This document shows, piece after piece, positions 27,466 through 55,751 of a stretch of DNA of 64,000 nt. Below the pieces are notes generated by a model, which made no database searches, was not told the DNA's origin, and was given only the letters and a program-made list of their open reading frames with translations. The stretch lies in the NCBI GenBank assembly GCA_035283685.1, contig DATETJ010000011.1:95994-159993 (forward strand), read 5' to 3'. Source of the stretch: Candidatus Bathyarchaeia archaeon (GTDB lineage: Archaea; Thermoproteota; Bathyarchaeia; Bathyarchaeales; Bathyarchaeaceae). Every line of letters begins with the position of its first letter. The first letter of the stretch is position 1. Both the position numbers and the translations under genes were made by a program.

Positions 27466-29412
27466 TTGGTTGAGCGCAGTGAGTTTTTAAACCACTACTC
27501 CAGTCATGGATATGAAAAAGACAGAGAGGTTTTATGGGACGGGGGGGAGGGAAGGCTAACGGTAAACTTCGTTATTGCTGTTGACCACAATTGTGAACGA
27601 CTGACTTTTTTCATTGAGAAAATAAGGTCTTGCTTGGCTCCAATAGAAGGATTGCAGACAGATGTTTGTTCTTATGGAGCTTTTTCTGCTGTCTGGGCGG
27701 CGAGCAAATGGGCGCCTATCAGTCATATCGCCGACGATAGCGGTGCAGCAATAGTATGGGGAGAACCTACCAAAGACCCTGGCTCGGAAAGAGTCGACGC
27801 AGAGCGGCTTCGTGTTCTGTGGAAACCAAGAAGCGAAGTGCCGCCTGTTTTTGACGGTTTCTACGCAGCCGCATTGTACAGTCCTGAGGAAGGCTTATTG
27901 ATGGGGGTTGATATTCTAGGAATCTTTCCAGTCTACTATTATTCTACGGATGATTTGATTCTGGTTGGCTCCAGCCCCGAACTCTTTAGGTTCCATCCCG
28001 CTTTTCGAATGCAGTTCAACCCCGCTGGTCTTGTGGGCATTTTTCTTGCTAGCGGTTTGTTCGATGGCAAAACTTTGCTTCAAGGGGTCAATCGTTTAGG
28101 CGCTGGCAACATGCTTGTTTGGCGATGGGAGAAAGGAGCAAGCGAAGTGAACCAGTATCGAGTCCCGCTTTCACAGAAGTATTTTGATTTTTCATTGAAG
28201 GAGCAGTTGGACGTGCTCGATGAGGCAATTGGCAGTGCAGTTAGGCGTTACACGGTTAAGGGCGCTAGGTACACTATGCTTCTTTCAGGCGGGCTCGATT
28301 CAAGAATGGTCGCAGGCTACCTTAAACGAGAAGGCGTTGAATTTACAGCTTTAACCGATGGATTGCCAACCGACATTGACGCAGAATGCGCGGCGCAAGT
28401 ATCCGCAGATTTAGGCGTTAAACATGACTTAATTGATGTCGGAGCACGGGAATGGCTCCAATACGCACATGTGTCGTTGAAATGGGAGTTTCTAGCCAAC
28501 GGTTTCACAGGTGGCAGAACCTGGGGAATCTGCTCTCATCTGGAAAAGAGGACGCCTCGAGTCATCGCAGGCTTTCTGGGCGACGCCATACTAGGAGGAC
28601 TTTATATCAACTGGGCTAAAAATCCCATGTCATTTCGTGGTCTTGGTGGTGACTTGTCTTTTGACGCCTTTTTCCATCAGATTAACAGGCGTGGTGTCCC
28701 TCGGTTCGTCCTTAAGAAGCTGCTACGAAAGGAGTTGTTTGATGATTTTGTTCAAGACACGATAGCGCGTGTTAGAAGAGAATATGAAAGCTATTCAGAT
28801 CTAGAGTTTCAGCGCGCTTGGTGTTTCGACCTGCATCATCAAGAACGGTTCCGTCCAGGAAACATGGTGTGGATTCTCTCCTTTGGAGCATGGCCAGTGC
28901 TACCTCTGATTGACCGAGGCATCCTTGAAGTCGCTGCAGGCTTGCCCGTATCTGCATTTAACAATCGACGGTTGGAAACAGAGCTAGTTTGCAAGCAGTT
29001 TCCAAACTTAGCCAGCCTGCCTTTAGACCGTAGTTCATACGACACAACTCCGTTGAAACCCACAATCAAACAACGGCTCATGTGGTTTGCGATTGGCGAC
29101 GGAGGGGTTTGGAAGTTGAGCGGAAACGCTCGTCACCTGCGTCGCTTTCTATATTCCCATCTGCGTGGCGTTGAGCCACGATATTACTATCGCGTGTGGG
29201 ATTTCAACAGTGCGAACTGGAGGGCAATAAGACGTGAGGCGGAAAAGAATCGTGAATTAGCGGGACAGTTTTTCGATGAGTCCGTGTTCGGAAAGGTCTT
29301 GCCTGGTCCCGATGCGACTTTAGAGTTTGACAATCCCGCGGTTGAATCGATGGGTCTGAAGTGTTTAATCGGATTCGTGTTATGGCTAGAGAGCCACTGC
29401 GAAAAAATCTGA
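27466..29412 (+). CDS. Asparagine-synthetase-like protein without glutaminase Cys
   Basis: A 648-residue protein with an N-terminal Ntn-hydrolase-like domain (FDGFYAAALYSPEEGLLMGV, LILVGSSPELF) and a C-terminal ATP pyrophosphatase domain with the PP-loop LSGGLDSRMV near residue 273. The N-terminal Cys that hydrolyses glutamine in AsnB is absent: the protein begins MVERSEF and the motif region is shifted. It therefore probably uses ammonia or another acceptor, or works as an AMP-forming ligase in a special pathway, as in beta-lactam synthetase relatives. The start at TTG 27466 is uncertain. No neighbour clarifies its role. Confidence 0.8.
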   Translation: MVERSEFLNHYSSHGYEKDREVLWDGGEGRLTVNFVIAVDHNCERLTFFIEKIRSCLAPIEGLQTDVCSYGAFSAVWAASKWAPISHIADDSGAAIVWGEPTKDPGSERVDAERLRVLWKPRSEVPPVFDGFYAAALYSPEEGLLMGVDILGIFPVYYYSTDDLILVGSSPELFRFHPAFRMQFNPAGLVGIFLASGLFDGKTLLQGVNRLGAGNMLVWRWEKGASEVNQYRVPLSQKYFDFSLKEQLDVLDEAIGSAVRRYTVKGARYTMLLSGGLDSRMVAGYLKREGVEFTALTDGLPTDIDAECAAQVSADLGVKHDLIDVGAREWLQYAHVSLKWEFLANGFTGGRTWGICSHLEKRTPRVIAGFLGDAILGGLYINWAKNPMSFRGLGGDLSFDAFFHQINRRGVPRFVLKKLLRKELFDDFVQDTIARVRREYESYSDLEFQRAWCFDLHHQERFRPGNMVWILSFGAWPVLPLIDRGILEVAAGLPVSAFNNRRLETELVCKQFPNLASLPLDRSSYDTTPLKPTIKQRLMWFAIGDGGVWKLSGNARHLRRFLYSHLRGVEPRYYYRVWDFNSANWRAIRREAEKNRELAGQFFDESVFGKVLPGPDATLEFDNPAVESMGLKCLIGFVLWLESHCEKI

Positions 29413-30286: not shown

Positions 30287-30631
30287 GTGGTGTTAGGGCA
30301 GAACTTTGACCTAGTTGTCACAAAAGATCCAAGCCTCATCGGAGCGACCGGTGAGATGATCGCTTGGAAATACCTCAGGGGCAAGAGAATATGGACTCAC
30401 AGAATCGGTTCATGGTATCCTTTTCCACCGAGCCACCCTCTCCGAAAAGGTGAGGACAATTTTGAGCTTAGGGGTCTGAAAGACGAACAGGTGGAATACT
30501 TGAAGAATAATTATTTGCGGGGCCCAAGGCCGTATGACTTCGTGGGTGTGAAGCGGAAGCGTGGTCCTGACGGTTTCGTCGGAGAGGCTGACAAGAGCTG
30601 GAGAGGGTCAAATCGTCGCGCAATTCCTTAA
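30287..30631 (+). pseudogene. Truncated nuclease-like protein
   Basis: A 114-codon frame from GTG 30287. It contains SLIGATGEMIAWKYLRGK, an aromatic IGSWYPFPPSHP, and RPYDFVGVKRKR, like archaeal PD-(D/E)XK-type proteins in which such a YDFVGV strand is followed by a GEVK-type strand. Here the following stretch is FVGEADKSWRG and the frame stops shortly after, so the catalytic strand and C-terminus look lost. It lies immediately before the first AMP-ligase gene, in debris. May still be expressed. Confidence 0.45.
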
Positions 30632-30666: not shown

Positions 30667-31962
30667 ATGCGCAACTTGCGAGCCCTGCGCAGAAATACCT
30701 GGCTTCCGACTTCCGAATTAGAAAGAATGCAATTGAAGGCTCTTCGTAAAATCTTGAAATACGCTTACGAGAACGTTGCTTTTTACCATCACAGATTTGA
30801 CGCAGCCAAAATCAAGCCTGAAGACATTCAATCTATAGAGGACATGCAAAGACTTCCAATTCTCACAAAAAAGGACGTGCAAAGGAATTTCGATTCTCTG
30901 GTCTCAAGAAACGTCAGAATGGAAATGTGCACGAAAGAAACAACCTCAGGCACGACTGGCACTCCTCTAAACATTATTTCTGAGAAAACAGCCTCTAGTA
31001 TTATGTCGGCCAACAAGCTTAGGCATCAGGTGGAAAATGGAAGCAGACTACTCAGAGACAAATACGTGCTTCTCCTACCAGTGAAGGGATTAGCTCGTGC
31101 GTATGCTAGAAGGACTTATCTTGGCGGTTTTCTCACACGTTTGGGCCTCCTCAGAAGACGTTTGATGGACGCTCAAGAGCCAATAGAAGACGTGATGGAG
31201 AAGTTGCTACACTTTGGGCCGGATGTAATAGATAGTATGCCAAGTTTCTTCCTATTGCTGATGAAAGAAATGGAAAAAGGAGGACAAGATATTCGTCCAC
31301 GACGTATTTTTGCGTGTGGAGAACTCCTTGACGCTAGAAGTAGGGCATTCATCAACTCCGCTTTTAAGGTTGACGTTATTGACGTGTATGGATGCACGGA
31401 GGCAGGAAACATTGCCTGGGAGTGTTCTGAACGTATCGGTTATCACACAAATATTGACCTGATAGTGCCCGAATTTGTCAAGGATGATGCGCATGTAGCT
31501 GTGGGGGAAGCTGGAAAGATTGTTTTGACACCGCTCTGGAATTTTGCGATGCCACTGATAAGGTATGATATTGGCGACGTTGGAAGACAGAGCAGCGAGA
31601 GATGCCCTTGCGGGAGAGGATTGCCTCTAATGGAAGTAGTAGAAGGAAGATATGAGGATTTCATAGTCTTACCGAGTGGCAGAATGATTTCACCGTACGT
31701 CACCTCGCGCTATTTTGAAAATGTTGAAGGCATAGATGAGTATAAGATAATTCAACAGGCAAGAAACAAAATCTATATACAACTAGTGCTGAGAGAAAAG
31801 CACAATAAAGACATATTTCTTCGTCTTGAAAACACGTTCAGAAAGGAGTTAGGAGAAGACCTGACGATTAGCATCGAGGCCGTGGATTCTCTACTGAAGA
31901 ACGGAAAACGTCGAAACGTAATCTCAAAATGTTTAACTCGGGAACAGTTTTTCTCCTATTAG
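30667..31962 (+). CDS. CapK/PaaK-like AMP-forming ligase 1
   Basis: A 431-residue adenylating enzyme of the phenylacetate-CoA ligase family. ATP-binding loop TSGTTGTP is at residues 93-100; YGCTEAGNIAWEC and RYDIGDVGR follow, with RCPCGRGLPLMEVVEGRYED before the C-terminal mobile domain. The CxCGR type cysteine cluster is usual in this group. It activates a carboxylate as acyl-AMP and probably transfers it to CoA or another thiol. A paralogue is at 36143-37435. Between them lie the precursor peptide, peptide-recognition and radical SAM genes, so the pair may serve that pathway. Confidence 0.88.
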   Translation: MRNLRALRRNTWLPTSELERMQLKALRKILKYAYENVAFYHHRFDAAKIKPEDIQSIEDMQRLPILTKKDVQRNFDSLVSRNVRMEMCTKETTSGTTGTPLNIISEKTASSIMSANKLRHQVENGSRLLRDKYVLLLPVKGLARAYARRTYLGGFLTRLGLLRRRLMDAQEPIEDVMEKLLHFGPDVIDSMPSFFLLLMKEMEKGGQDIRPRRIFACGELLDARSRAFINSAFKVDVIDVYGCTEAGNIAWECSERIGYHTNIDLIVPEFVKDDAHVAVGEAGKIVLTPLWNFAMPLIRYDIGDVGRQSSERCPCGRGLPLMEVVEGRYEDFIVLPSGRMISPYVTSRYFENVEGIDEYKIIQQARNKIYIQLVLREKHNKDIFLRLENTFRKELGEDLTISIEAVDSLLKNGKRRNVISKCLTREQFFSY

Positions 31963-32029: not shown

Positions 32030-32039
32030 CTTTTATACG
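32030..32039 (+). promoter_or_regulatory. TATA box of the peptide operon
   Basis: CTTTTATACG is a good archaeal TATA box about 40 bases before the ATG of the small Cys peptide (32073). Transcription should begin near 32058-32064, giving a very short leader that just holds the ribosome site GAGGGAG at 32062-32068. Confidence 0.6.
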
Positions 32040-32072
32040 ATGCCTCATCATCATATCCTAAGAGGGAGAAAC

Positions 32073-32174
32073 ATGTCGAAACCCACAATCCGTAGAATCT
32101 CAGGAATCAGCAAAACACGGAAAGCCGAAAAATGCAGCGGTTGCGGCTGCTCGGTAGACTTGGACAAAAAATAG
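32073..32174 (+). CDS. Candidate RiPP precursor peptide, 33 residues
   Basis: ATG 32073 to TAG 32172-32174, with GAGGGAG four bases before the ATG. Residues 1-20 are basic and leader-like (MSKPTIRRISGISKTRKAEK). The C-terminal 13 residues CSGCGCSVDLDKK hold three Cys (21, 24, 26). It lies 65 bases before a PqqD-type peptide-binding protein and a SPASM radical SAM enzyme on the same strand, the standard arrangement for a ribosomally made peptide modified at Cys or nearby residues. A small zinc-binding peptide is the alternative. Too short for normal gene finders. No modification is proven. Confidence 0.65.
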   Translation: MSKPTIRRISGISKTRKAEKCSGCGCSVDLDKK

Positions 32175-32239: not shown

Positions 32240-32548
32240 ATGAGAACAAATGGTGAAGCGAAAGCCTCTCCGAGAAAAAAAGCGATCAAAAGAAAAAGAA
32301 TAGTTGTAAGAGACAGCCTCGAAAGCAGTGGTCATTATCTGGTACTAAACACTTCCAATGGAGACAGCTACGAGATAAACGCCACTGGCAAGCTAATCTT
32401 GGATTGCTGTGACGGTTCTTTAACGAAAGACGAAATAGCAAAGAAGATTGCCGACACGTACAGACCCAAGGAAAAAGTCTTAAACATAGACGTAATCAGG
32501 TATCTCAACCTCTTGTTGAAAAAGGGCATCTTGGATGAAGAGGAATAA
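32240..32548 (+). CDS. PqqD-like peptide-recognition (RRE) protein
   Basis: A 102-residue protein of the PqqD/RRE fold. After a basic 25-residue N-terminus come the beta strands HYLVLNTSNGDSYEINATG, then LILDCCDGSLTKDEIAKKI, and a C-terminal helix with VIRYLNLLLKKGILDEEE, the canonical PqqD pattern. Such domains bind leader peptides and hand them to radical SAM enzymes. Its end overlaps the start of the radical SAM gene by 14 bases, so the two are coupled. It has CC in the middle, unusual but not diagnostic. Confidence 0.88.
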   Translation: MRTNGEAKASPRKKAIKRKRIVVRDSLESSGHYLVLNTSNGDSYEINATGKLILDCCDGSLTKDEIAKKIADTYRPKEKVLNIDVIRYLNLLLKKGILDEEE

Positions 32549-33665
32549 GCAGAAGAAAGAAACAACTTCTCTAGCAACGTGCGAAAAAGTAATCCAAGAA
32601 AACTCCAGGACAAACTCTCTGGGTTCCAAAACTCCTCGGCACGAAAAACACGCGAAACCAAACTTTCGGTTTCAATGGCACATCACAGACAGATGCAATC
32701 TCGCGTGCAAACACTGCTACATAGAAGACAATAACTCGGTAGAACTGAGTACCGAAGAGATTACTCAAGTTATTGACCATCTTGCTGAAGTCCTAGAGCG
32801 GTGGAATTACTCGGGAAGCGTCTCTCTTACTGGAGGCGAGGCGCTCATGAGACGCGACTTTGAGAAAATTGTGAAAGCAATCAGAAAACACGAACAGTTC
32901 AAGAACATTTTGGTGATGACTAACGGTGTGCAGATTTCAGGTGAGACTATCGAGTTCCTGAGAGATAACGACTGTGCCGTTCAGGTCAGCATAGACGGCT
33001 TCACCAAACAACAACATGATGAAATCAGAGGTGAAGGAAATTTCGACAAAGCCATCGCAACGCTTGGGAAGCTGTCCGAATCAGGTATCTATACTGCCGT
33101 GCACTACGTCGTTCACAGGCTAAACTGTCCCACAAGTATCGATCAGTTGAAAGGCTTCTTCAGCTTGTTTGGGCAAGCTGCCGTAAAACAGGTCGTTTTC
33201 AGCCTGTTGATTCCAATAGGCAAGGGAAGAGAAATGAGAAGGTTACTGCTCTCACCCAATGAGGTCAGAACCTTGTTCAACCAGTTAATTGAGGTTTCAA
33301 GAGATTTTCCAACCGTGCATTTGGACACAAATCGTCCGTTGTGGGCGGCGACCGAAGCCTGCTCAGGCGGCGCATGCCCTGTTGGCTTTTGGTATTGCAC
33401 TATTCTTCCAAACGGCGACGTGCTTCCATGCAGGCGCCTGCCAATCGTTTTGGGCAACCTGAGAAACCAGTCCTTCTATGAGATCTGGTACAAATCAGAC
33501 ATCTTGTGGAGACTAAGGGAGCATCGAAAGATTGAAGTCTGCGGTCAGTGTAAGCTGCTAGATCAGTGTGGGGGATGTAGAGGCATGGCCTACGCAGTTT
33601 ACGGAGACTACATGGCAAGAGATCCCGAATGCTTTCTTCTCTCTGATGGACAAGAAAGCTCCTAA
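32535..33665 (+). CDS. SPASM-domain radical SAM peptide-modifying enzyme
   Basis: A 376-residue enzyme. The radical SAM cluster motif is C54-x3-C58-x2-C61 in CNLACKHCY; SAM-binding GGEAL and MTNGVQISGE follow. A SPASM/twitch domain at the C-terminus has Cys 276, 281, 288, 299, 336, 339, 345, 348 and 366 (GACPVGFWYC, NGDVLPCRR, CGQCKLLDQCGGC), enough for one or two auxiliary [4Fe-4S] clusters. Together with a preceding PqqD-like protein this is the hallmark of radical SAM peptide maturases that form thioether or C-C cross-links. Heme-pathway AhbC/D-like enzymes are an alternative, but the peptide next door favours a RiPP. Confidence 0.9.
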   Translation: MKRNKQKKETTSLATCEKVIQENSRTNSLGSKTPRHEKHAKPNFRFQWHITDRCNLACKHCYIEDNNSVELSTEEITQVIDHLAEVLERWNYSGSVSLTGGEALMRRDFEKIVKAIRKHEQFKNILVMTNGVQISGETIEFLRDNDCAVQVSIDGFTKQQHDEIRGEGNFDKAIATLGKLSESGIYTAVHYVVHRLNCPTSIDQLKGFFSLFGQAAVKQVVFSLLIPIGKGREMRRLLLSPNEVRTLFNQLIEVSRDFPTVHLDTNRPLWAATEACSGGACPVGFWYCTILPNGDVLPCRRLPIVLGNLRNQSFYEIWYKSDILWRLREHRKIEVCGQCKLLDQCGGCRGMAYAVYGDYMARDPECFLLSDGQESS

Positions 33666-33709: not shown

Positions 33710-34369
33710 GTGTTCGAAAGGCAGTACGTCGAAAACGAGTGCTTGTGGGGCCTATCTCCTGATTCTATTCTGACCAAAAATATAGGAAAGATTCCAGTGG
33801 GCAGAGCATTGGATCTAGGTGTCGGTGAAGGGAGGAACGCCCTTTTCTTGGCTCAGACTGGTTTTCAGGTCACTGGAATTGACATCTCACCCAAGGCAAT
33901 AGAAAAATTCCTCAATCTAGCCAGAGAAAGAGACGTTGCAGTTGAAGGATTGGTGAGGGACATCAGAGACTTCGAGTTCAAACCACACACGTATGATCTG
34001 ATCGTCGCAACTGTCACCCTACATTTTCTCGCAAAGACAGAGGTGTACGAGACAATCTCCAAAATCATCCGAAGCGTGGCCCTTGGCGGCTACGTTTACA
34101 TCGGAGACTTCACAGTCAGTGATCCAAGCTACAAAAGTGCCAAGAAAAGACTGAGACAAGTGGATGAGAACACGTTCTGGTACCCAGACTTATCCTGCTA
34201 CCTGTATTTCTTTTCACACAACGAGTTGAGAAGGATGTTTACGGATTTCGAGACAAAAGTCTATTTGGAAAGAACTCTTGCAGATACCCCTCATGGAAAA
34301 CGAGGTATCCATACCCATTCAGTTGCCTTATTGCTCGCGCAGAAGTGCCCGAGGAAAAAAGGACTTTAA
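33710..34369 (+). CDS. Class I SAM methyltransferase, TehB-like
   Basis: A 219-residue methyltransferase. Motif I is ALDLGVGEGRNALFLA, motif II includes VTGIDISPKAIEK, and YDLIVATVTLHFL marks motif IV. The C-terminal part (PHGKRGIHTHSVALLLA) resembles TehB/tellurite-resistance-type enzymes, which methylate small thiols or related acceptors. GTG 33710 is the start, 44 bases after the radical SAM gene. In this cluster it may methylate the modified peptide; that is inference only. Confidence 0.85.
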   Translation: MFERQYVENECLWGLSPDSILTKNIGKIPVGRALDLGVGEGRNALFLAQTGFQVTGIDISPKAIEKFLNLARERDVAVEGLVRDIRDFEFKPHTYDLIVATVTLHFLAKTEVYETISKIIRSVALGGYVYIGDFTVSDPSYKSAKKRLRQVDENTFWYPDLSCYLYFFSHNELRRMFTDFETKVYLERTLADTPHGKRGIHTHSVALLLAQKCPRKKGL

Positions 34370-34553: not shown

Positions 34554-35237
34554 ATGATTATGAAAAGACCAGACTCACTGACAAATGCGAACAGCGCTCA
34601 CAAGAACCTAAAGAGCTTACTTGACACGATAACCGAAAGAAGAAGTGTCAGAAGATTTCGACAGGATGGGATTACAGACGCAGACCTCAGAACTTTGGTC
34701 TTTGCTGCAACAAGGGCTCCTAGCGGTGGGAACATGCAGCCATGGTTCTTCACAATTGTCAAAAATCAACATCTAAAGGACAGACTTGCAAGTGTCATTC
34801 TGCAGAACGTAAACGAATTGAATCAAAGTGACCTCTTCTTCAGGAAAGCCACAAAGAGTATCCGGAAGTACTCAACTTTCTTCAAAAACGCCCCCATCGT
34901 GATCGCAGTCTTAGTTAAACTGTACGACCGAACCTATATTGATTCAATCGTAAAATTCATGAACGTGGATGCCTTCGAGGCTGTTCACCTACTGGGTTTT
35001 GCAGAGGTACAGAGTGTGGCAGCTGCCATAGAGAATCTGCTGTTGGTTGCTCACGCTATGGATTACGGAGCCTGCTGGATGAGGGTGCCTTTCTGTTCAA
35101 AAAACAATCTCGAACGAGAACTGGGAGTAGAAAAGCCATGGCATCTGCTAGCATTCATTCCGATAGGATTGCCCGACGAGAAACCGAAAGCAATAGCAAG
35201 AAAAGCCGTTGAAGAAGTCATGAAAATCATAGAGTAA
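34554..35237 (+). CDS. Nitroreductase-family flavoprotein
   Basis: A 227-residue FMN enzyme. Family motifs are ITERRSVRRFRQDG near the N-terminus, APSGGNMQPWFFTIV (FMN-phosphate and dimer contacts), AAIENLLLVAHAMDYGACWM and AFIPIGLPDEKP near the end. Members reduce nitro or quinone compounds or oxidise azoline rings and amide bonds in some natural-product pathways. Here it is the last gene before a 0.9 kb gap, in line with the radical SAM and methyltransferase genes. It is not close enough in sequence to McbC-type dehydrogenases to claim azole formation. Confidence 0.85.
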   Translation: MIMKRPDSLTNANSAHKNLKSLLDTITERRSVRRFRQDGITDADLRTLVFAATRAPSGGNMQPWFFTIVKNQHLKDRLASVILQNVNELNQSDLFFRKATKSIRKYSTFFKNAPIVIAVLVKLYDRTYIDSIVKFMNVDAFEAVHLLGFAEVQSVAAAIENLLLVAHAMDYGACWMRVPFCSKNNLERELGVEKPWHLLAFIPIGLPDEKPKAIARKAVEEVMKIIE

Positions 35238-36142: not shown

Positions 36143-37435
36143 ATGCGCCGTTACGAATCTGCCCCGCGCTTTCTCTATTATCTCTTCACGTATGGAAAAA
36201 ACACTAGATTAGAAACACCTAGACTTCTTGCGATACAGGAAAAGAAAATGAGAGCGATGGTAAGATACGCCTATGATAACGTACCTTTTTACCACAAATT
36301 GCTGAACGCCATCAATGTGAAGCCGACGGAGATCAAAACAGTCAACGACCTGAAGAGGCTTCCCATAATATCAAGAAGACAAGTGCAGGAAAACTACGCC
36401 AGTATCATATCAAGGGAATTCAACCCCGCGAAATGTGCCAAACACAAGACCTCCGGGTCAACCGGGGTTCCACTAACGGTTCTTACCGACTACAGAACTT
36501 TAGAACCGTCGTGGGCAGTTTCTCTACGCCAGTTCTTTGAAAGCGGCGGGCGATTGCTTGACAAACAGGTGCGCCTTCGGGGACCGGGAGGAAACCCTCC
36601 GCATGCCGGAGCCAGACCGTTCTCAGAACATATTGGAATTTTCAGAACAGAATGGGTTACCATAGTTGATGAAATCTCTGACGCTGTACTTTCTTTTCTA
36701 AAAGCCTACAAGCCTGACGTAATGATTGGTTACCCTGGCTTTTTTCAACTGCTTTCGGAGAAGACAAGGGGTGAGTTAAGTCCGAGAATCATTTTTTGCA
36801 TGGGCGAAACCTTGAGTAGTCGTTGCCGCGCCTTGATGGGTTCAGCTTTTGAGGCACGGACTTTTGACTCTTACGGGTGCACTGAAACAGGGGACATCGC
36901 TTGGGAATGCCCTGACGAACATGCAGGTTATCACATAAATATTGATTCTGTCATCGTTGAATTTATCAATGAAGGCGAGAGCGTCGCCCCGGGTGAAGAA
37001 GGAGAAATTGTTCTCACATATCTGTTCAATCATGCTATGCCCTTTATTCGTTACAAAATAGGTGACGTTGGAGTTCCAATCGAAGAGCAATGCTCTTGTG
37101 GAAGAACTTTGCCTCTTATGCGTTCGATAAAGGGTCGAGCTGACGATTTCATAGTTCTTCCCGACGGAAGAAAAGTGTCTCCCTTGGGTATCTTGAACAT
37201 GGAAAATTTCGCAGGGGTGTCAGAGTATAGGATAATTCAAGAGAAGCGAGACCTTATAGAAGTTTGGTTGAAAATGCCTGAACACTATTCCGATGACTCT
37301 GTGAAGAAGTGCGTTTCCGCCCTCAGAAGAAGCTTGGGAGAAGGAGTTCAAATAAAACCGCGAATTGTTGAGGAAATTCCGAGAGATAATTCAGGAAAAT
37401 TGAGGCGTGTCATCTCAAAAGTAGCAAACTGCTGA
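36143..37435 (+). CDS. CapK/PaaK-like AMP-forming ligase 2
   Basis: A 430-residue paralogue of 30667-31962. ATP loop KTSGSTGVPL near residue 97, YGCTETGDIAWEC, and QCSCGRTLPLMRSIKGRADD are all present; C-terminal KLRRVISK carries the usual mobile-domain lysine region. Start ATG 36143 has no clear ribosome site; a short frame from ATG 36118 overlaps it in another phase. The two ligases differ in their middle parts (AYARRTYLGG versus GGNPPHAGARPF), suggesting different acyl substrates. It may act with the peptide cluster or independently. Confidence 0.88.
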   Translation: MRRYESAPRFLYYLFTYGKNTRLETPRLLAIQEKKMRAMVRYAYDNVPFYHKLLNAINVKPTEIKTVNDLKRLPIISRRQVQENYASIISREFNPAKCAKHKTSGSTGVPLTVLTDYRTLEPSWAVSLRQFFESGGRLLDKQVRLRGPGGNPPHAGARPFSEHIGIFRTEWVTIVDEISDAVLSFLKAYKPDVMIGYPGFFQLLSEKTRGELSPRIIFCMGETLSSRCRALMGSAFEARTFDSYGCTETGDIAWECPDEHAGYHINIDSVIVEFINEGESVAPGEEGEIVLTYLFNHAMPFIRYKIGDVGVPIEEQCSCGRTLPLMRSIKGRADDFIVLPDGRKVSPLGILNMENFAGVSEYRIIQEKRDLIEVWLKMPEHYSDDSVKKCVSALRRSLGEGVQIKPRIVEEIPRDNSGKLRRVISKVANC

Positions 37436-53666: not shown

Positions 53667-55751
53667 TCAACCTGCCCGCTGAAAAGGGACTTGGCTTTTC
53701 CATATGAGTATGGGTTCATCTTCCTGGCTTGTCAGTTGCCTTTTGACAAGACCAGCCTTTTCTGCCTTGCTGAGTGTCTCAAAGAGTAGATCTAGTTCTA
53801 TTGGTTCTTCGGTCAGCTTTTCATAAGTCGCAGCAATTTTGTCTAAAGTGGATTTTCCTGTCTTGTCACTTTCATAAACAGCTTTCAGAGCAAGTTTCTC
53901 TCTTTCCGAAGTTAGTCGTTCAAATGCTACAAAGTTAGATCTCCTTTTTCTTCGTGTTACTATGGCTTGAAGTACCAGAACACTTCCAAGACAGAAAGCG
54001 GTTGTCATCATCAGAGTTTTGCCGTACTCGGGAACAATAGGCGCGATCCATGAGTGACTCTTGGTGTATTGCCACTTGTTGACGACTTCCTGTCCTAAAG
54101 GAACTAGCAGGCTTTTAGCTTTCGCGGAATCTTCTGGCGTGATTATTGTTAGAAGGCTTGTTTTTACGTATCTTTCTTCGAACGTGGAGCCCATGTCAAA
54201 TAGCACTTTCTCGTACCAATATAGGACGGCTTGCGTCAGGTTTGATCCTACGTATTGAAAGACAAAGAAGCGTCCAATCACTGGCGGGTCCTGCAGGAGT
54301 TGGACATCTGCAAGATCCAACTGATTCACTCGAGGCTGCAACCCGAATTCCAATCGCAACGTGTACAGGCAATATTCCCAGCCGTGAAGTTCAGACAATG
54401 AATCGCCTATTTCTATCGATACCCAAGTCGTGATTTGTTCCGTTTTTCTGGGAATGTATACATACAAAAGCGCAACGTCACGACCCGCTGCTCTCTCAAA
54501 TTCCCTGTCTCGATAAGCAAATACGAGTTTATGTCCTTGAACATCCGGAAGAACATCCGGACTCGTCTTCTCGCCACCGGGATATAGAATGGATACTTGC
54601 ATGGTTTCGCCGAGAGAAAAAATGGGCACCTGCACATACAGGATCAAAATCGAGCAAACAAGAAGAATGAGGGTTTTGTACCAGTCTCGATTTGTAGACC
54701 TCCGAATTCTGTTTCCAAGGAGTTTCCCACAGCTTAGGCAAAGGAATTGTGCTTTCAAGTCGCGTAGATGATGTTCACATTGCGAAGTTCTGACATCTTT
54801 GACGAAGATTTTCGTCTTGAACATCTTTTCCACTGTGAGCAAAAAGACAAAGCTTCCCGCCAAGATCAGAATCCAGCCCCCAAACAATTCGAAAACTCGC
54901 ATCCCGATTTCAGAACCAAACTGATAACCTATCAAGGCGATAACGATTATGCGAACTATGTTGAGGGCATATATGAGGGGAAAACCAATTAGAAACATTA
55001 CTGGTTTCTTCCAAGTCCTCCCTCTCACAATATAAGCAATGAATAAGGCAAAGATGGAAAAGGTCATGATTGAATAGATGCCAGAGCATGCGATGTCTAT
55101 TGTTACGAAGAAAGGGGAATTGTCAGGCTTTTGAAGAACTATGATCGGGGCTCCGTACTCAGCAACTAGAGTTATCGGCAAGCCGATACCTTTGAGGGTC
55201 GTGTAGACGGCTTGGGAAGTGATTGTTGACAGCGTTGTACCCGCTGCGAGGAGAGCTTCCACGGGGAGTGGTATTATGAAGAAAAGAAGTGCCACTGCGA
55301 ACATCAGAGCCTTTAGCGTTTCCTTGTTGAATACAATCAGCAAGCATCCGGCTAAGAATAGCGGAAGTGAGATTAAATGATATTGAAGTGGATAAAACGT
55401 GTAGGAACCATTCCAGTATAGTAAGAAGGACAGGACTAATAATAGTCCACCTATGATTTCCTCCTTGGCATTTGCCCTCGTAGCTGTACTGGTTTCTCTA
55501 AAAGACGCAGCAGCTGCCAAAACCTTCCTTTTCCTATATATTAGGTAGCTTATGAGGAAAGGAATTAGGATTATGTAGCTGGTTGGTTCATAACGCATTG
55601 CTTCACCTGATACCATGATAATATCCGGATGATAGACAATCAACGCTGCCGCTAGTATCACAATTGCTTTTACAGTCATCGTCATTCTGCTGAGTTTCTC
55701 GCGCAGAAGAAGTAAGATGCTCATTTCAGCTTCGCCAAACCTTATCAGCAA
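53667..55751 (-). CDS. Archaeosortase fused to EpsI-like domain
   Basis: A 694-residue multi-pass protein. Residues 30-310 form an exosortase/archaeosortase domain: nucleophile Cys222 in DIACSGIYSIMTF, Arg267 in LNIVRIIV, and Arg285 in GMRVFELFGG as the third catalytic residue, as in ArtA-type enzymes. Around 325-350 are two CxxH/CxxC-like pairs (CEHHLRDLKAQFLCLSCGK). A soluble extracytoplasmic EpsI-like region (about 380-570) and a helix follow, then a winged-helix-like tail. It should cut C-terminal sorting tails and transfer proteins to a lipid or glycan. Alternative start ATG 55724. Confidence 0.85.
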   Translation of the reverse strand: MLIRFGEAEMSILLLLREKLSRMTMTVKAIVILAAALIVYHPDIIMVSGEAMRYEPTSYIILIPFLISYLIYRKRKVLAAAASFRETSTATRANAKEEIIGGLLLVLSFLLYWNGSYTFYPLQYHLISLPLFLAGCLLIVFNKETLKALMFAVALLFFIIPLPVEALLAAGTTLSTITSQAVYTTLKGIGLPITLVAEYGAPIIVLQKPDNSPFFVTIDIACSGIYSIMTFSIFALFIAYIVRGRTWKKPVMFLIGFPLIYALNIVRIIVIALIGYQFGSEIGMRVFELFGGWILILAGSFVFLLTVEKMFKTKIFVKDVRTSQCEHHLRDLKAQFLCLSCGKLLGNRIRRSTNRDWYKTLILLVCSILILYVQVPIFSLGETMQVSILYPGGEKTSPDVLPDVQGHKLVFAYRDREFERAAGRDVALLYVYIPRKTEQITTWVSIEIGDSLSELHGWEYCLYTLRLEFGLQPRVNQLDLADVQLLQDPPVIGRFFVFQYVGSNLTQAVLYWYEKVLFDMGSTFEERYVKTSLLTIITPEDSAKAKSLLVPLGQEVVNKWQYTKSHSWIAPIVPEYGKTLMMTTAFCLGSVLVLQAIVTRRKRRSNFVAFERLTSEREKLALKAVYESDKTGKSTLDKIAATYEKLTEEPIELDLLFETLSKAEKAGLVKRQLTSQEDEPILIWKSQVPFQRAG

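Follow-up and report, generated by a model that had tools for sequence, protein, structure and literature searches.

The RRE fold binds leader peptides in known systems, and the Cys-to-Asp links of the freyrasin type follow a C-X3-D spacing. Stand-alone RREs beside radical SAM enzymes have been described in RRE-Finder (PMC7470986) and also in PMC12710340, in which YxxP and LxxP are given as known RRE recognition motifs; a description of the ranthipeptide class is available (PMC8326336). ACGX systems appear to be uncharacterized in the literature searched, and the top matches of the literature search included no paper that names both Bathyarchaeota and RiPPs. To our knowledge, few radical-SAM peptide products have been characterized from archaea, and none from Bathyarchaeia.

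Here, a 64,000-nt stretch of DNA (the window) from a 2.28 Mb genome of Candidatus Bathyarchaeia was analyzed. The class agrees with Bathyarchaeia, in that the radical SAM proteins of three genomes from the same family as the window are identical to the one in Bathyarchaeum tardum. A 33-aa frame in the window, followed by genes for a PqqD-like protein and a radical SAM/SPASM enzyme, probably encodes the precursor in a small cassette for ribosomal-peptide modification.

Candidate Precursor Gene and Its Signals

The initial annotation had described a 33-residue frame with a TATA box, a ribosome site and a stop 65 bases before a recognition protein, and all of these elements are present in the sequence (Table 1), with 65 nt separating the stop of the frame from the PqqD-like ATG at 32240. 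The three clustered Cys that it had pointed out were located at residues 21, 24, and 26 of MSKPTIRRISGISKTRKAEKCSGCGCSVDLDKK, in which residues 1–20 form a basic N-terminal part and residues 21–33 the Cys-rich end CSGCGCSVDLDKK. Transcription is expected to start at about 32060, ∼26 nt downstream of CTTTTATAC. A 44-aa version from the in-frame ATG at 32040, which is the mechanical ORF start, was also considered; this ATG lies 1 nt past CTTTTATAC and would be absent from a transcript starting at about 32060, and the 33-aa version was therefore preferred.

Table 1. Features of the putative cassette and its downstream genes (window positions).
Feature	Position	Strand	Remarks
TATA-like box CTTTTATAC	32030–32038	+	Read from the sequence; 41–43 nt before the ATG in a regex scan
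Shine-Dalgarno-like GAGGGAGA	32062–32069	+	3 nt before the ATG; GGAG matches the anti-SD complement
Candidate precursor peptide MSKPTIRRISGISKTRKAEKCSGCGCSVDLDKK	32073–32174	+	33 aa; ATG 32073, TAG 32172–32174
PqqD-like protein, putative stand-alone RRE	32240–32548	+	102 aa; PF05402 3.2e-11
Radical SAM/SPASM enzyme	32535–33665	+	376 aa; PF04055 1.6e-22, PF13186 1.5e-11
SAM-dependent methyltransferase (TehB-like)	33710–34369	+	PF13649 2.2e-17; ∼45 nt after the radical SAM gene
Nitroreductase-family protein	34554–35237	+	PF00881 3.2e-32; ∼185 nt after the methyltransferase

When the intergenic ATG frames of the window were collected, 89 frames of 25–90 aa and 118 frames of 20–90 aa were obtained. 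An SD of at least 4 nt preceded 36 of the 118 frames, an SD together with a TATA-like box at 30–52 nt preceded four, and a Cys/Gly/Ser cluster was present in one of these four, namely the 33-aa frame. A small frame by itself is not exceptional in the window; the combination of signals is rarer. The codon usage of the 33-aa frame scored +1.1 bits over 32 codons (23rd percentile among same-length gene pieces), and an equal or higher per-codon score was found in 19% of the non-coding frames; codon usage is neutral, neither for nor against coding. The case for a putative coding frame is made by its signals and its context and not by its composition.

The frame might instead be a chance ORF in a 5′ leader, in which case the PqqD-like protein and the radical SAM enzyme would act on the peptide of some other gene or on a substrate that is not a peptide; we consider this unlikely. 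The number of small intergenic frames (118) and the neutral codon score would fit such an ORF; however, about 180 nt of untranslated leader would then be left before the PqqD-like gene, the promoter and the SD of the frame are well placed, and it is unlikely that a Cys/Gly/Ser cluster would land between the promoter and the PqqD-like gene.

The leader region of the frame had no match in Rfam, and its RNA formed no stable structure, being less structured than shuffles (z +1.1), so that there is no sign of attenuation. A tRNA scan found none, and the sigma-70 promoter and terminator scan is not informative for an archaeon. The peptide itself had no match in Pfam or NCBIfam and no homologue in 100 relatives, the best match (E 0.0096) lying inside an unrelated 324-aa frame. 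Only a slight probability is assigned to the reading in which the frame encodes no enzyme substrate but either a regulatory leader peptide or a small protein with metal- or redox-binding properties (CxxCxC as half a zinc ribbon). A CxxCxC motif can bind metals, and zinc-ribbon-like and ferredoxin-like stretches occur among the weak best matches of the peptide, but a normal zinc ribbon cannot form from a single CxxCxC in 33 aa, a Pfam match is lacking, and the absence of both a stable RNA structure and an Rfam match argues against a regulatory leader. The position of the frame beside the PqqD-like and radical SAM genes speaks against both versions.

Recognition Protein and Radical SAM Enzyme

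The PqqD-like protein scored 43.8 bits against PF05402 (cut-off 23.4) and was the only match to this family in its own genome. An AlphaFold model built on two sequences reached a mean pLDDT of 76, and its best PDB match was TbiB1 with a bound leader peptide (5v1v, E 1.3e-4), with PqqD (5sxy) and the RRE-bearing thioether enzyme 5why among the lower-ranked matches. According to this model, the protein is predicted to have a winged-helix RRE fold. In another genome of the same order (G053), one 473-aa frame (L097:6741–8159) encodes a fusion of a PqqD-like domain with a radical SAM/SPASM domain.

The first 14 nt of the radical SAM/SPASM gene lie within the PqqD-like gene. Its product carries the CX3CX2C motif at C54, C58, and C61 and the SPASM cysteines at C281, C299, C336, C339, C345, C348, and C366, all of which are intact and invariant in the alignments. 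The predicted structure of the enzyme (mean pLDDT 58) was too poor for a fold search, and no second match to the enzyme was found in its own genome.

Orthologues were searched for at several levels. For the PqqD-like protein, none was found in 100 relatives, where identities were at most 30%; the PqqD query found none in plasmids. A search of viral contigs gave one fragmentary match. No orthologue of the cassette was found in 256 other Bathyarchaeia genomes or by a single-sequence scan of genome contigs, and no close relative of the radical SAM enzyme in 257 genomes of the class (own genome included) or in 398 of the phylum; the Bathyarchaeia search yielded only a distant ACGX-like enzyme, in G085.

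Gene Neighborhood

The TehB-like methyltransferase is a possible operon member with the radical SAM gene, and the nitroreductase-family protein a possible partner of the cassette. The window nitroreductase is 24% identical to the one after acgM in Roseburia, and the nitroreductases that follow acgM in Roseburia and Subdoligranulum are 21–24% identical to it. These neighbors bear on the product. If the peptide is the substrate, the product could be a small peptide-derived cofactor or carrier (PQQ- or mycofactocin-like), with the methyltransferase and the nitroreductase acting at later stages; this reading, a special case of the precursor reading with another product, is judged quite improbable. 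The short precursor, the stand-alone PqqD, the redox-type neighbors and the recurrence of a nitroreductase after acgM in two genera would suit it, but the peptide lacks the Tyr required in PQQ- and mycofactocin-type chemistry, the nitroreductases are only distantly alike at the identities given above, and the mycofactocin and PqqE scores of the enzyme are far below the cut-offs.

The cassette is surrounded by genes for an Asn-synthase-like protein (27466–29412) and two PaaK-like AMP ligases (30667–31962 and 36143–37435), and the region looks like a surface-polysaccharide locus. A 114-aa frame without a Pfam or NCBIfam match lies before the first PaaK-like gene (30287–30631), and a large exosortase/archaeosortase-like membrane protein, judged by eye, is encoded at 53667–55751. 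The polysaccharide-type region, with its AMP ligases at 30667 and 36143 and the Asn-synthase-like gene at 27466, lends some support to the non-peptide reading mentioned above, in that the PqqD-like protein and the radical SAM enzyme could serve such a pathway.

Relatives of the Enzyme and Their Neighboring Peptides

When 84,980 species genomes were scanned by an alignment-based search, at least 80 loci with relatives of the radical SAM enzyme were obtained. FastTree placed the window enzyme within a small clade, and under an IQ-TREE mixture model it lay inside an 11-row clade with support of 100/100. Besides the window, this clade comprises L122 (Desulfobacterales, JAUWQO010000037.1), L125 (Thorarchaeota, JAUVHR010000039.1), L103 (Bathyarchaeia, G085), L193 (Bacteroides), L233 (Roseburia, annotated as acgM), L236 (Subdoligranulum, unannotated) and the subclade L123/L124/L127/L129; L233 and L236 are AcgM-type enzymes from plasmids. 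The window enzyme pairs with L122 at 90/87 (IQ-TREE), and L122 is its nearest relative among the matches listed (36% in the alignment). Even the nearest relatives among these matches share only about 35% identity with the window enzyme, and the branches are long. The ACGX-system model TIGR04340 (cut-off 400 bits) was the best NCBIfam model for L122 (204 bits), L125 (180) and L103 (345).

A Cys-rich peptide or a Cys-rich protein tail adjoins the enzyme in 6 of the 10 other clade members. In L122 (5974–7432), the radical SAM enzyme, the PqqD and a 46-aa peptide MKKGTKKAYKKPVLKKEQTMNFPVEIINDSNKRIVCRQCSSCHGCR form a tight three-gene unit; the peptide gene, with the strong SD AAAGGGGG in front, overlaps the PqqD gene by 4 nt (shared ATGA), and its product ends in RIVCRQCSSCHGCR (CRQCSSCHGCR) with four Cys. 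As a gene call, it is stronger than the window peptide. That the closest relative among the matches listed has the same gene trio is a further point against a chance ORF in the window. In L125 (4491–7095), a 496-aa protein ends in DDCGGCSGCGGCGGCGGCGG, with its stop 8 nt before the radical SAM ATG, and this tail may be the substrate of the adjoining enzyme. In L103 (3756–5052), a 52-aa peptide with the end CGECGGGRGCGGCGR (RCGECGGGRGCGGCGR) is encoded 61 nt upstream of the radical SAM gene, by which L103 would be an ACGX-like system within Bathyarchaeia. ACGX-repeat peptides were found just upstream of the radical SAM genes in L193, L233 and L236, and the acgA of Roseburia is annotated as an ACGX-repeat peptide. 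Of the clade loci, the window and L122 were the only two in which a PqqD was detected.

In the bacterial subclade (L123, L124, L127–L129), neither a Cys-rich peptide nor a PqqD was found beside the radical SAM gene, which suggests a different substrate. A non-peptide substrate finds a parallel in one of these clade mates, L123, which has a carrier protein, an AMP ligase and sugar-type genes but no peptide.

Under a strict criterion, which missed L103 and L193 because their Cys are spaced wider, a Cys cluster adjoined 3 of 10 clade loci versus 3 of 105 others (p 0.008, a post hoc comparison in which the window is counted). A loose criterion (three Cys in 16 aa) was dropped since it fired in many unrelated loci. 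On the Cys stretch, the shuffle fractions of the window peptide were 0.01 against the L125 tail, 0.02 against L103 and 0.05 against L122. The window leader carries MSKP (M-x-x-P), a loose fit to YxxP/LxxP, and the L122 leader carries YKKP; the alignment of the two leader parts was not above shuffles (shuffle fraction, p 0.33). The window peptide resembles the other peptides in Cys/Gly spacing only, and not significantly beyond.

A W-[NA]-x-K stretch is common to the peptide N-termini of L233, L235, L236, and L103 (GWNKK, GWAQK, SWNEK, and FWNKT); it is absent from the peptides of the window and L122 and was not found in the L193 frame. The stretch is a possible recognition motif where PqqD is absent. 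L235 (2365–3717) lies on plasmid pNP174 of Methanosphaera sp. ISO3-F5, where an 85-aa 'hypothetical protein' proved to be an ACGX-type repeat peptide. The adjoining radical SAM gene is split into two pieces in the annotation; pNP174 holds an archaeal ACGX system whose enzyme frame is apparently broken.

Since the 33-aa frame directly precedes the PqqD-like and radical SAM genes and some distant relatives of the enzyme also adjoin Cys-rich peptides, the peptide is probably the substrate of the enzyme. This part of the initial annotation was strengthened by the AcgM clade, the Cys-rich neighbors and the RRE fold, but drew nothing from the leader, whose similarity to that of L122 was no better than that of shuffles.

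Proposed Mechanism

The frame has the general RiPP precursor feature of a short gene near a modifying enzyme, lying shortly before the PqqD-like gene that overlaps the radical SAM gene. We infer that the frame is translated, that its N-terminal part serves as a leader and that its Cys end is modified by the enzyme. Judging from the spacing, the TATA box at 32030 would give one transcript for the peptide, the PqqD-like protein and the radical SAM enzyme, perhaps with the methyltransferase. The stand-alone PqqD-like RRE would bind the basic N-terminal part as a leader and pass the peptide to the enzyme, with the fold taken from the prediction and the binding from known PqqD and lasso B1 proteins. 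The enzyme would then cleave SAM, and the resulting 5′-deoxyadenosyl radical would act on CSGCGCSVDLDKK, the Cys-rich end, where a thioether between a Cys sulfur and a nearby carbon is the most likely modification. With Tyr, Trp, Phe, and His all missing from the peptide, aromatic cross-links are excluded.

The three-gene unit (peptide, PqqD, and radical SAM) is small enough for testing in a laboratory host. By setting the window against the ACGX loci without PqqD, the evolution of leader recognition becomes directly testable.

Comparison with Known Systems

The cassette is like the ACGX systems in that its enzyme shares the 100/100 clade with the AcgM enzymes of L233 and L236, a Cys-Gly-rich peptide lies directly upstream, and a nitroreductase lies downstream, as in some ACGX loci. 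However, the window enzyme scores 150 bits with TIGR04340, fourth among its matches, against the cut-off of 400 bits; its peptide has a single CSGCGCS cluster, whereas acgA has the repeats ACGTACGAG; a stand-alone PqqD is present, while none occurs in the ACGX loci examined; and the window leader lacks the W-[NA]-x-K motif of ACGX peptides. The L122 trio, which is unannotated and whose enzyme is the nearest relative among the matches listed, resembles the window locus in that its PqqD stands alone and its peptide is short, basic and rich in Cys at the end, but its gene order is reversed (enzyme, PqqD, and peptide), its peptide has 46 aa, four Cys and a YxxP leader, and its PqqD is only 17–22% identical to that of the window.

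Like the ranthipeptide/SCIFF systems (CteB and PapB/freyrasin), the cassette combines a SPASM radical SAM enzyme with a Cys-rich precursor and an RRE, although in those systems the RRE is fused to the enzyme, whereas here it is a separate gene. SCIFF peptides have six Cys and the window peptide three; the C-X3-D spacing of the freyrasin type is absent, no Asp being found at Cys+4; and the enzyme scores 80 bits with the PapB model NF047865 (cut-off 340). A very short precursor, a PqqD-type protein and a SPASM radical SAM enzyme are shared with PQQ and mycofactocin systems (PqqDE and MftBC), but their precursors need Tyr chemistry, PqqA having Glu and Tyr, while the window peptide has no Tyr or other aromatic residue. 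The scores against the respective cut-offs were 25.7/46 for PqqD, 95/381 for PqqE (TIGR02109) and 128/265 for MftC. An RRE (B1) is likewise shared with lasso systems, in which the B2 protease and the C cyclase are encoded next to the precursor; among the window neighbor genes scanned, no B2-type protease was recognized, and the Asn-synthase-like gene lies 2.7 kb upstream.

By the features tested, the cassette falls outside the ACGX, ranthipeptide, PQQ, mycofactocin and lasso systems. A tentative extension, which falls somewhat short of probable, is that an ACGX-related branch (one Bathyarchaeia and one Desulfobacterales genome, among the matches listed) acquired PqqD as a separate protein along with another kind of leader, such that leader recognition would be swappable while the Cys-modifying enzyme was kept; the archaeal product would then be a previously unseen Cys-modified archaeal peptide. 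On the sequence comparisons made here, the cassette is best described as a putative PqqD-bearing variant related to ACGX systems.
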